NCBI GenBank assembly: GCA_024998595.1 | Contig: JACOEK010000002.1 | Span: 372,001 to 436,000 of the forward strand | DNA: 64,000 nucleotides | DNA from: Nitrospira sp. | GTDB taxonomy: Bacteria > Nitrospirota > Nitrospiria > Nitrospirales > Nitrospiraceae | Direction: 5' to 3' | Shown here: positions 47,292-49,951 of the stretch, in pieces | Layout: every line of letters starts with the position of its first letter | How positions within the stretch are numbered: the stretch's first letter is position 1 | The notes under the pieces: model-generated | Database searches by the model: none | What the model was told of the DNA's origin: nothing | Seen by the model: only the letters and a program-made list of their open reading frames with translations | Position numbers and translations under genes: made by a program

Positions 47292-47450
47292 TCTGTCCCC
47301 CCGTAGAAAGAGGGAAAGTCTAACAGGAAGCAAAATTCAGCCGCAACCTCTTCCGGAGGAATCCACTCCTCCATCATCCCCGTTTCTTCTCCGCCGAATG
47401 CCCTGACGCCTTCCTTGACAGGCCTGGCGGGCGGAGTGTACCAAGACAGG

Positions 47451-48026
47451 ATGAGATCGGGGTGCGCACTTGTCTGTCCCATCGTTCTTCTCTGCAGCTC
47501 CCTCGTCTGGGCCGAAGACCTTCCTCTGACCCGCAACGTACCGGTTCCGGATTTCCAAAACCGTACCGAAAGCGCCAAACCGTACAATTTCGATGCGCCA
47601 CCCGAAGGCATGTTTCGCCACATCGTGCTGGCCGAAGGGTTCGATGAAGAACTGGGATTCCAGCGGACCCATGAAATCGTTCCCGTCAAACCGACCGAAC
47701 GGTTCTCCGCCGGTGCCAGGCCGATCTTCATCGTATTTGAACTGCACCAGCACTACCAATCGTTCCAGGTCTTCGGGCGCTGCTATCCGGAGGACGTGGC
47801 TGGAGTGGACGGAGAACGCGTGGTCGCTGAAGATGCGATGTACATCGCCCTGGAAGATCAAACCGGCTATCTGAAGTTATTCCCTACTGACAGCGGCTGG
47901 AAACCGGGACGGTATAAGGTCGAAATCCATGCCGGCGAACAAATCAACGACATGAGTCTGATGGGGACCATGCGCTTTACCATCACCGCCACAGCAGAAT
48001 CAGAAGTCCCTGCCAGGAACAAGTAA
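47451..48026 (+). CDS. Periplasmic hypothetical protein
   Basis: 191 residues from the ATG at 47451, with a signal peptide (CALVCPIVLLCSSLVWA). The mature part is beta-rich (RPIFIVFELHQHYQSFQVFG, PGRYKVEIHAGEQIND), resembling an Ig-like fold seen in secreted proteins that modify stress responses. No family named. Divergent from the methyltransferase gene. Confidence 0.65.
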   Translation: MRSGCALVCPIVLLCSSLVWAEDLPLTRNVPVPDFQNRTESAKPYNFDAPPEGMFRHIVLAEGFDEELGFQRTHEIVPVKPTERFSAGARPIFIVFELHQHYQSFQVFGRCYPEDVAGVDGERVVAEDAMYIALEDQTGYLKLFPTDSGWKPGRYKVEIHAGEQINDMSLMGTMRFTITATAESEVPARNK

Positions 48027-48173
48027 CCGCCCTGACCCGCCGCAGACCAATTGAGGGCCGCTCAACAGCGGCGTTCTCAGTCACTCTGACGCAGGGTGCC
48101 TCACAAAGAGGCGTTGTCTTGACGGAGAAACGGCTCTCAGACTAGACTTTGCCCCAGCCATACAGATCCTTCA

Positions 48174-48234
48174 GGTGATGGAGTTCACCGAGAACCGCCG
48201 ATCGCGATCATCGCAGCGGCTGATAACTCCTACC
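48174..48234 (+). ncRNA. Fluoride riboswitch aptamer (crcB motif)
   Basis: All conserved parts of the crcB motif are present: P2 with its invariant loop GGTGATGGAGTTCACC (48174-48189), a short joining segment, P3 formed by CCGC (48195-48198) and GCGG (48216-48219) with an extra hairpin, then CTGATAACTCCTACC. The sequence aligns nearly base for base with the Bacillus cereus crcB riboswitch apart from the length of P3. It is followed directly by its expression platform, a terminator that shares CTCCTACC. It should switch the downstream gene on when fluoride is bound. Confidence 0.95.
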
Positions 48235-48259
48235 AGCGCCCACGCGGTAGGAGTTTTTT
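48225..48259 (+). terminator. Riboswitch terminator overlapping the ribosome site
   Basis: AACTCCTACC (48225-48234) and GGTAGGAGTT (48246-48255) form a 10-bp stem, followed by TTTT and at once by the GTG start. The 3' arm contains TAGGAG, the ribosome binding site, so the hairpin can both stop transcription and hide the translation start. Fluoride binding keeps the 5' arm in the aptamer and opens the gene. Confidence 0.9.
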
Positions 48260-49951
48260 GTGAACCAGTCCCCCGCAAAGACCCCAACCTATCCGCAGTA
48301 TCAGCTGACCGAAGTCCTTCGCGATATTTTCGCCCACCTGGGCATCCTCCTGAAGCTGGAGCGATCGATCCTGGGCATCATCGCCTCGTATGCGGTGGCC
48401 ATTGGATTCTTCCTCCTCTGTGTCCCCATTGCCGTCCAGGAGCTCGTCAGCACGTTCTCCTTTGCGATGGAACCCAGGATGATCTTTACCCTGGCGCTGT
48501 TCGTCGCCAGTTCCTTAACCGGCGTCGCAGCCTTTCGTGTGCTGCAGGCGCGCGCAGTGGAGACCTTGCAACAGCGAATCTACGCGCGCGTCGCGATCGC
48601 ATTCACCCGCCTCCTGCCCCGTCTTCGCGACGACACCTTCTCCACGCCCCAGGCTTACCGGTTCATGGAGGCCGACTTGCTGACCCGCGCCCTAGTGGCG
48701 ATGGTGGCGGATCTCTTTAACGTCGCTGTGGTCGGCACCATCGGGATGACCATGCTCATCATGTTTCACCCCTTCTTCGTTCTCTACATTTTTGTATTGA
48801 TCGTAGGATTTGTGGGCTTACTCACCATCTTCGGCCGTGGAGGGTTTTTTATTACCCTGGAAATGTCTCGTCTGCACTACGAGATATTCGGCTGGATTCA
48901 AAATATCGCGCACAATCTTCCCCATCTTCGTGCGGCCGGGGACAGCCCGTACCTGCTGGAGCGAACCGATGCCCTGACTCGCATCTATGCCCGAATCCGA
49001 CAGCGCCGTTCCGATACGCTCACCGGACGACAGTACAAAGCCGCGGCCCTGTGGCAAGTCGCCGGACACAGCGGATTGCTCATCACCGCTGGGCTCCTGG
49101 TGGCCGATGGACAACTGACGGTCGGGCAATTCGCTGCCGCCGAGGTGCTGGTCGGCAACCTTCTACTCAACATGGACACGCTGGCTCGACGTATGGTCGC
49201 GATGTTCTTTACGTTCGTGTCCTGCAGGGAAATGGCCGCCCTGTTCTCCCTGCCTACAGAAGAAGGCGGCGCGAAGGAAGACGTGCCGGCAACACAGTTC
49301 GGGGGCTCCGGCATTCGCCTGACGTGTCGAGAGCTCTCCTATACCAGTGCCGATGGCGCACCGATCTTTGAACACGTATCTCTGGAGGTGGCACCCGGAG
49401 AAAAAGTGACCGTTTTGTGCGGCACGAACAGGGCCAAGACCTCTCTCGCCAAAGTCCTGGCGGGGCTTCACCCTCCGTCGACCGGATTTGTCCGGTACAA
49501 CGATCTGAATCTGATCGAGGTGAAACGCGATTCGATCAGCCGGGTTCGAGGACTCGTCCTCGATTCTCATCCCACCCTGCTGGACGGCACGCTCGAAGAC
49601 AACATCACACTGGGCCGACCTGCGATCGAGTATGAGGATCTTCAATGGGCGCTGCGGTTTGTAGAGTTAGACGGCGACATCGATTCGATGCCGCAGGGTC
49701 TGAACACCCTGGTCTCCAGTGGAGAACCGCACCTCTCTCTCAGTCAGATTCTCCGCCTCCTCGTGGCCCGCGCGATCGTGACCCGCCCGCAACTGCTGAT
49801 ATTCGACGGCACACTCCACAACATGTTGCCCGCCACACGCGACGTGCTGCTTCGCCGTCTCTGCGCCAAAGACGAACCCTGGTCAGTCATCTTCATCTCG
49901 AACGATCCAACCTTCTCGACTCATGTCGATCGGCAAATTACTGTCGAGTAG
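48260..49951 (+). CDS. ABC-exporter-like protein with degenerate ATPase, fluoride-controlled
   Basis: 563 residues from a GTG six bases after TAGGAG. Five or six membrane helices (ILGIIASYAVAIGFFLLCVP, FTLALFVASSLTGVAAF, others to about 300) and a C-terminal nucleotide-binding-type domain. The latter is decayed at every key motif: Walker A reads GTNRAKTS (about 387-394) in place of GxxGxGKT, the signature LSGGQ is LSLSQ (about 491), and Walker B ends FDG with Gly where the catalytic Glu belongs (about 516). Classical hydrolysis is unlikely. The riboswitch implies a part in fluoride resistance or response, perhaps a binding or regulatory membrane protein. Confidence 0.85.
   Translation: MNQSPAKTPTYPQYQLTEVLRDIFAHLGILLKLERSILGIIASYAVAIGFFLLCVPIAVQELVSTFSFAMEPRMIFTLALFVASSLTGVAAFRVLQARAVETLQQRIYARVAIAFTRLLPRLRDDTFSTPQAYRFMEADLLTRALVAMVADLFNVAVVGTIGMTMLIMFHPFFVLYIFVLIVGFVGLLTIFGRGGFFITLEMSRLHYEIFGWIQNIAHNLPHLRAAGDSPYLLERTDALTRIYARIRQRRSDTLTGRQYKAAALWQVAGHSGLLITAGLLVADGQLTVGQFAAAEVLVGNLLLNMDTLARRMVAMFFTFVSCREMAALFSLPTEEGGAKEDVPATQFGGSGIRLTCRELSYTSADGAPIFEHVSLEVAPGEKVTVLCGTNRAKTSLAKVLAGLHPPSTGFVRYNDLNLIEVKRDSISRVRGLVLDSHPTLLDGTLEDNITLGRPAIEYEDLQWALRFVELDGDIDSMPQGLNTLVSSGEPHLSLSQILRLLVARAIVTRPQLLIFDGTLHNMLPATRDVLLRRLCAKDEPWSVIFISNDPTFSTHVDRQITVE

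Follow-up and report, generated by a model that had tools for sequence, protein, structure and literature searches.

A fluoride riboswitch precedes a degenerate ABC-exporter-like membrane protein with a probable role in fluoride resistance in Nitrospira

In this work, we asked why a Nitrospira genome carries a riboswitch of the fluoride class in front of a gene for a membrane protein of ABC-exporter shape instead of a fluoride channel, and what such a protein might do. The DNA analyzed is a stretch of 64,000 nucleotides (hereafter, the window) from a genome of 4.23 Mb whose completeness is listed as 99.4%. Reviews recognize two types of bacterial fluoride exporter, Fluc and CLC-F. The partners that have been named for fluoride riboswitches are CrcB/Fluc, CLC-F, Na+/H+ antiporters, pyrophosphatase, enolase, formate hydrogen lyase, MutS, and Usp (PMC11139923, PMC2864571, PMC7266159, PMC5533749). 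A preliminary description of the locus, made from its sequence, had maintained that an ABC protein is not an established partner, and this agrees with its absence from the partners given in these four publications and in PMC9495176, the gene lists of Baker 2012 aside. Likewise, we found nothing relevant in the literature on Nitrospira in connection with a fluoride riboswitch or a degenerate nucleotide-binding domain (NBD).

The aptamer is an ordinary member of RF01734 (fluoride, crcB motif). The cmscan alignment covers the family model from end to end (positions 1-64 of 64) at 53.7 bits (Rfam gathering score, 34), and the conserved elements are all there (GGxGAUGGAGUUC...AACCGCC...GGCUGAUnACUCCUAC), in line with the close match that had been reported before. 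A chance occurrence was ruled out by the covariance-model score together with conservation across genomes. By whole-genome scan, the aptamer is the sole RF01734 match of the genome, and its start lies 95 nt 5′ of the GTG codon of the ABC-like gene. A promoter scan of positions 48000-48400 returned a single promoter-like site, directly 5′ of the aptamer, and 25 of 29 orthologues also have a TTGAC-type pattern 5′ of their aptamers. This arrangement would place a putative transcription start just upstream of the aptamer. The preliminary description had considered that the transcript might skip the riboswitch by way of an internal promoter; this was rejected because the sole promoter-like site is upstream of the aptamer, with the reservation that a scan of this kind may miss other promoters.

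The region between the aptamer and the gene has the expression platform of this riboswitch class. AACUCCUACC, the 3′ end of the aptamer, pairs with GGUAGGAGUU (folding energy of positions 48223-48262, -19.7 kcal/mol), so that the pseudoknot strand ACUCC is common to the aptamer and the hairpin and is used by both the pseudoknot and the terminator/Shine-Dalgarno hairpin. Since the hairpin would mask the putative Shine-Dalgarno sequence in its 3′ arm, translational control is likely. The same layout, with the hairpin's GGAG 4-10 nt 5′ of the start codon, is found in 23 of 29 orthologues, whereas only 10 of 29 have a U-rich tail, defined as at least six T in the ten bases that follow GGAG. Masking is therefore the more general mechanism, and the riboswitch probably acts largely on translation. 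The terminator of the preliminary description thus holds in part: a U tract does follow the hairpin in the window's genome, where termination may operate in addition to masking, but a pure transcription terminator was rejected as the general mechanism because the U-run is not conserved while the Shine-Dalgarno layout is. N. moscoviensis has another terminator-like hairpin, distinct from this one and further downstream, with a T8 run. Judging by the riboswitch class, expression of the gene should be induced by fluoride.

Table 1. Features of the riboswitch, its putative promoter and the ABC-like gene (window positions).
Feature	Position	Strand	Remarks
Sigma-70-like promoter TTGACG-18-TAGACT	48119..48148	+	1 found vs. 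0.1 expected
Fluoride riboswitch aptamer (RF01734, crcB motif)	48165..48239	+	53.7 bits, E 4.3e-12; single copy in genome
Expression-platform hairpin AACUCCUACC...GGUAGGAGUU	48225..48255	+	Competes with aptamer pseudoknot (ACUCC)
GGAG, putative Shine-Dalgarno, in hairpin 3′ arm	48250..48253	+	6 nt 5′ of start codon
U6 tract, possible intrinsic terminator	48254..48259	+	Directly 3′ of hairpin; GTG start at 48260 next
Degenerate type IV ABC-exporter-like membrane protein, 563 aa, GTG start	48260..49951	+	Riboswitch-linked clade
Transmembrane domain (residues 19-330), strongly conserved half	48314..49249	+	AlphaFold2 model; dN/dS about 0.03-0.10
Degenerate nucleotide-binding domain (residues 350-563)	49307..49948	+	Pfam ABC_tran; motif loss
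Walker A remnant CGTNRAKTS	49418..49444	+	Three glycines lost, lysine kept; K in 29/29 clade members
Walker B remnant LLIFDG	49793..49810	+	Catalytic Glu to Gly; G in 78/78 family members
H-switch position FISNDP	49892..49909	+	His to Asn; N in 27/29 clade members

We searched 147 Nitrospiraceae genomes for relatives of the protein and for riboswitches. Relatives occur in all 147, with a distinct top group at 64-100% identity that consists of 31 genes in 30 genomes. The riboswitch stands directly upstream of 29 of the 31, and this link is kept across identities of 64-91%. Among the 95 riboswitch matches listed in these genomes, 93 exceed the cut-off. When the genes behind crcB-motif riboswitches were listed, as the preliminary description had proposed, the ABC gene was found behind 29 and a Na+/H+ exchanger, the largest other target in the family, behind 27. 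In genome G040, the 5′ half of the aptamer is visible beside a masked run of N. The riboswitch has been lost in genome G049 (L098/L202), where the ABC gene lies close behind the upstream gene, and an orthologue in a further MAG (L196) is also without the aptamer. At positions 1800-1985 of the latter locus, the GGUAGGAG arm before the start codon is retained although the aptamer is gone, which may represent a constitutive variant or an assembly fault.

In a tree of 78 proteins, all 29 full-length members of the top group formed one clade with support of 100/100. The nearest outgroup gene (genome G011, L074) is the last of a same-strand run that comprises a fluoride riboswitch and genes for a dynamin-like GTPase, two small/AAA-like proteins, a Na+/H+ exchanger, Usp, and the ABC protein, with the ABC start overlapping the end of usp by 4 nt. 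Its position in a riboswitch-led run suggests that the link to fluoride probably predates the clade. The gene and its riboswitch are also present in Candidatus Nitrospira defluvii (FP929003.1) and in the cultured N. moscoviensis NSP M-1 (NZ_CP011801.1). Beyond the family, a contig scan with two exact peptide patterns (LTGRQYKA and QELVSTFSF), which detect close relatives only, matched only Nitrospira, Nitrospiraceae, or Nitrospirota records plus one labelled 'Nitrosospira'.

Profile searches found neither CrcB (PF02537) nor CLC (PF00654) in the window's genome; both models give matches in control genomes. Among the 147 Nitrospiraceae genomes, CLC was found in none and CrcB above the cut-off in 53, in 52 of them intact. 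N. defluvii and N. moscoviensis, both with closed genomes, each contain exactly one fluoride riboswitch, located before the ABC gene, and neither CrcB nor CLC was found in them. Since CLC is missing from all of the sampled genomes and Fluc from most, and yet many have fluoride riboswitches, the gene behind the only riboswitch of these two organisms is an obvious candidate for fluoride defence. Of the 30 genomes with the clade, one has an intact CrcB; of the 117 others, 51 do (Fisher p 7e-6, kinship ignored). Inside the two largest genera, this negative association is no more than suggestive (p about 0.09 for each). One genome (G078) holds the clade gene and CrcB together. Neither gene was found in about 66 of the 147 genomes, indicating that Nitrospiraceae can live without either and that a missing exporter alone is no proof.

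Within the genus to which the window belongs, the gene is mostly found by itself, in a conserved housekeeping locus. A gene for a PF00999-type Na+/H+ exchanger comes next at loci L064, L065, L135-L139, and L195, and several of these loci have one for Usp as well. In two genomes without a CrcB match (G095 and G098), the ABC gene lies within islands of three to five fluoride riboswitches that also hold several Na+/H+ exchangers, Usp, and an enolase-like gene, and in G095 a phosphoglycerate-mutase-like gene too (eno and gpm were assigned from N-terminal sequence, not by a model). These islands resemble the riboswitch-led fluoride operon of Enterobacter cloacae FRM (ppaC, uspA, eno, gpmA, crcB, orf5249) in having usp and enolase genes behind a riboswitch, but the ABC gene and Na+/H+ exchangers are found where crcB would be (PMC5533749). 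Na+/H+ antiporters rank second after exporters among fluoride-riboswitch partners (PMC11139923). The suggestion that the ABC protein may be a new kind of fluoride-response protein is supported by a single clade in about 30 genomes, located in some of them in fluoride operons or islands, and by the lack of a known exporter in the window's genome. Other genes of the islands (L063/L064 in G095, L065 in G098) encode a dynamin-like GTPase, PepSY-domain proteins, and uncharacterised secreted proteins.

The shape ascribed to the protein was supported by an AlphaFold2 model built from 78 relatives (mean pLDDT 84.6, pTM 0.76), which fits a type IV ABC exporter with a six-helix transmembrane domain (TMD), domain-swapped extensions, and a fused C-terminal NBD. 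Among solved structures, ATP-bound HlyB comes nearest (Z 28.7, 2.7 A over 534 residues; Foldseek E 9e-24). ABC_tran, the sole Pfam domain found, matches the NBD with 37.3 bits (cut-off 25), and the Pfam search found no CrcB or CLC domain in the protein; NCBIfam ABC-exporter models match most of its length, but far under their cut-offs. What had previously gone unnoticed is that the NBD is degenerate. The catalytic motifs (GxxGxGK, LSGGQ, Walker B Glu, H-switch His, Q-loop Gln) are not found intact in the protein, in which LSGGQ has become LSLSQ. Throughout the 78 members of the family, Walker A retains only Lys and Thr, the Q-loop reads DS, the signature is LSxSQ or worse, and the H-switch His is mostly Asn. 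Because the Walker A Lys and Walker B Asp persist, nucleotide binding by the NBD may have survived. Paralogues without a riboswitch, which occur mostly in operons with HlyD-type, TolC-type, and 4HB_MCP-domain genes, show the same degeneracy, with Asn or Thr at the H-switch in nearly all. The degeneracy is thus ancestral, and we rejected the idea of a fluoride-specific change because it predates the fluoride link. No HlyD or TolC gene was found beside the fluoride clade in the loci examined. Lacking both the catalytic motifs and such partners, the protein is classified here as ABC-exporter-like and not as an active ABC transporter or a type I secretion component.

The two halves of the protein are under unequal constraint. 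In the fluoride clade, dN/dS is 0.03-0.10 for the TMD vs. 0.08-0.19 for the NBD (0.07-0.13 for the whole protein), and identity to the window protein in most members is 73-95% for the TMD vs. 58-86% for the NBD. The difference in identity amounts to about 9-20 points in most pairs, and to only 3 in the most distant member (G012), compared with only about 2 points on average in MsbA orthologues of the same family and about 0 in one HlyD-TolC-linked paralogue group. A constrained TMD joined to a relaxed NBD agrees with a membrane part that would function independently of ATP hydrolysis. A pseudogene was rejected in view of the low dN/dS and the presence of stop codons in nearly no orthologue, G113 alone having one TAG. 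Some clade-specific arginines occur at residues 98, 134, 204, 245, 249, and 323. The net charge of the TMD does not differ from that in paralogues (p 0.72) and is not counted as support for an anion pathway, and no fluoride-specific pore feature was found in the protein.

We propose that binding of fluoride would cause the aptamer pseudoknot to hold ACUCC, as in an ON-riboswitch, which would make GGAG accessible to ribosomes and, in genes with a U-run behind the hairpin, would allow transcription to continue. The ABC-like protein made as a result would confer fluoride resistance on Nitrospira without CrcB/Fluc or CLC-F, most likely by giving fluoride an exit route from the cell. The inside-negative membrane potential drives fluoride out through Fluc, so that an ATPase-dead protein could serve too; as with Fluc, fluoride would probably move passively with the membrane potential, and ATP, if bound, would do no more than gate the passage. 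We estimate the probability that the protein has a role in fluoride resistance at roughly 85%. Direct transport of fluoride is the leading mechanism, held tentatively and at somewhat under even odds, and is suggested by the fold, by the place in fluoride operons, and by genomes that lack known exporters and have this gene as their one riboswitch target. The fuller proposal, which we hold to be somewhat less likely than direct transport itself, is a third prokaryotic family of fluoride exporters, derived from a type I secretion-like ancestor, in which the ABC-exporter fold would have abandoned hydrolysis for passive conduction under riboswitch control and would replace CrcB/CLC-F in Nitrospira.

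A serious competitor, to which we give less credence than to direct transport, is that the protein carries no fluoride and assists the Na+/H+ exchanger or pH, ion, or envelope homeostasis during fluoride stress, for example as a non-catalytic scaffold or regulator. The loss of ATPase residues would suit such a role, as would the fact that its operon neighbours (Na+/H+ exchanger and Usp) are homeostasis genes and that exchangers are the other main riboswitch partner in the family. It is harder to reconcile with the window's genome, N. defluvii, and N. moscoviensis, which have a single riboswitch and hold no known exporter to assist, or with a TMD that is the most constrained part of the protein. 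It is improbable that the protein is an active exporter of fluoride or another compound, which would either pair with a paralogue from an HlyD-TolC operon or hydrolyse ATP by a non-canonical NBD. The resemblance to HlyB, the conserved Walker A lysine and Walker B aspartate, and paralogues encoded beside HlyD-type and TolC-type proteins in the same genome would all agree with this, but those paralogues are as degenerate (Glu to Gly in 78/78, the H-switch altered in nearly all), and the fluoride clade lacks HlyD/TolC neighbours. Degenerate NBD motifs and the absence of the aptamer from two orthologues (L202 and L196) could also mean that the riboswitch is real and its link to the gene incidental, or that the protein is a decaying pseudo-enzyme. 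Such a reading is very hard to sustain against a link preserved in 29 of 31 genes over a wide range of identity, a whole-protein dN/dS this low, and the independent operon context in G011.

The riboswitch and its ABC-like protein can be compared with known systems. CrcB/Fluc and CLC-F genes under RF01734 share the aptamer and the ON logic, and the ABC-like protein occupies the usual position of the exporter; both known exporters are unrelated to the ABC-exporter fold found here. Type I secretion ABC proteins (HlyB, PrtD, PCAT1, LssB) have the fold in common, and the paralogues lie in HlyD-TolC operons, whereas the fluoride clade is without such neighbours and its NBD is without catalytic residues. 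CFTR (ABCC7) has an ABC-exporter fold and a hydrolysis-incompetent ATP site and serves as an anion channel (PMC10727502). The comparison is limited to how it works, as no direct kinship is claimed and a channel role for the ABC-like protein is hypothetical; furthermore, CFTR has one competent site and a regulatory domain, whereas here both sites of the presumed homodimer would be degenerate. CsABCB9, a chloroplast ABC protein of the tea plant, has been reported as a fluoride exporter that helps E. coli and Arabidopsis tolerate fluoride (PMC9317437), and so provides a precedent for an ABC fold that moves fluoride. This plant protein has no riboswitch and is likened by its reported function, not by close kinship or comparison of NBDs. 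If the ABC-like protein does transport fluoride, it would found an exporter family of its own and show that an ABC fold in bacteria can become a passive anion pathway; in a purely assisting role, it would still add a new, conserved member to the fluoride regulon and give an ATPase-dead ABC family a function that can be tested.

Several other gene arrangements were observed. Outside the window, the same genome contains an operon of HlyD-like, TolC-like, two ATPase-dead ABC, and 4HB_MCP genes (L062 5536-13088, contig C9); operons of this type are conserved across Nitrospiraceae and form a set that resembles type I secretion but has no recognisable ATPase. Another degenerate-ABC group (L153, L154, L155, L158, L179) has no riboswitch and is always followed by two related genes (cluster c7). 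Tandem fluoride riboswitches precede an MFS gene at L063 1-4743 (G095) and around L068 6885-9036 (G069), and in G095 TolC-type and HlyD-type genes come after the MFS gene, giving an EmrAB-TolC-like set that seems to be controlled by fluoride. Directly 5′ of the riboswitch at about a dozen orthologous loci (e.g., L124 10023-10853, L130 10176-10907, L188 2990-3748) is a gene for a membrane protein without a Pfam match that looks TauE/SafE-like by eye. It is absent from the window, and a true TauE match occupies the same upstream place in G095 (L064 5428-6216). In the window, the same-strand gene 5′ of the riboswitch (47415-48026) encodes a secreted protein of 203 aa that belongs to no known family. 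This gene is kept in most orthologous loci, and at L202, which has lost the riboswitch, hardly any DNA separates it from the ABC gene.
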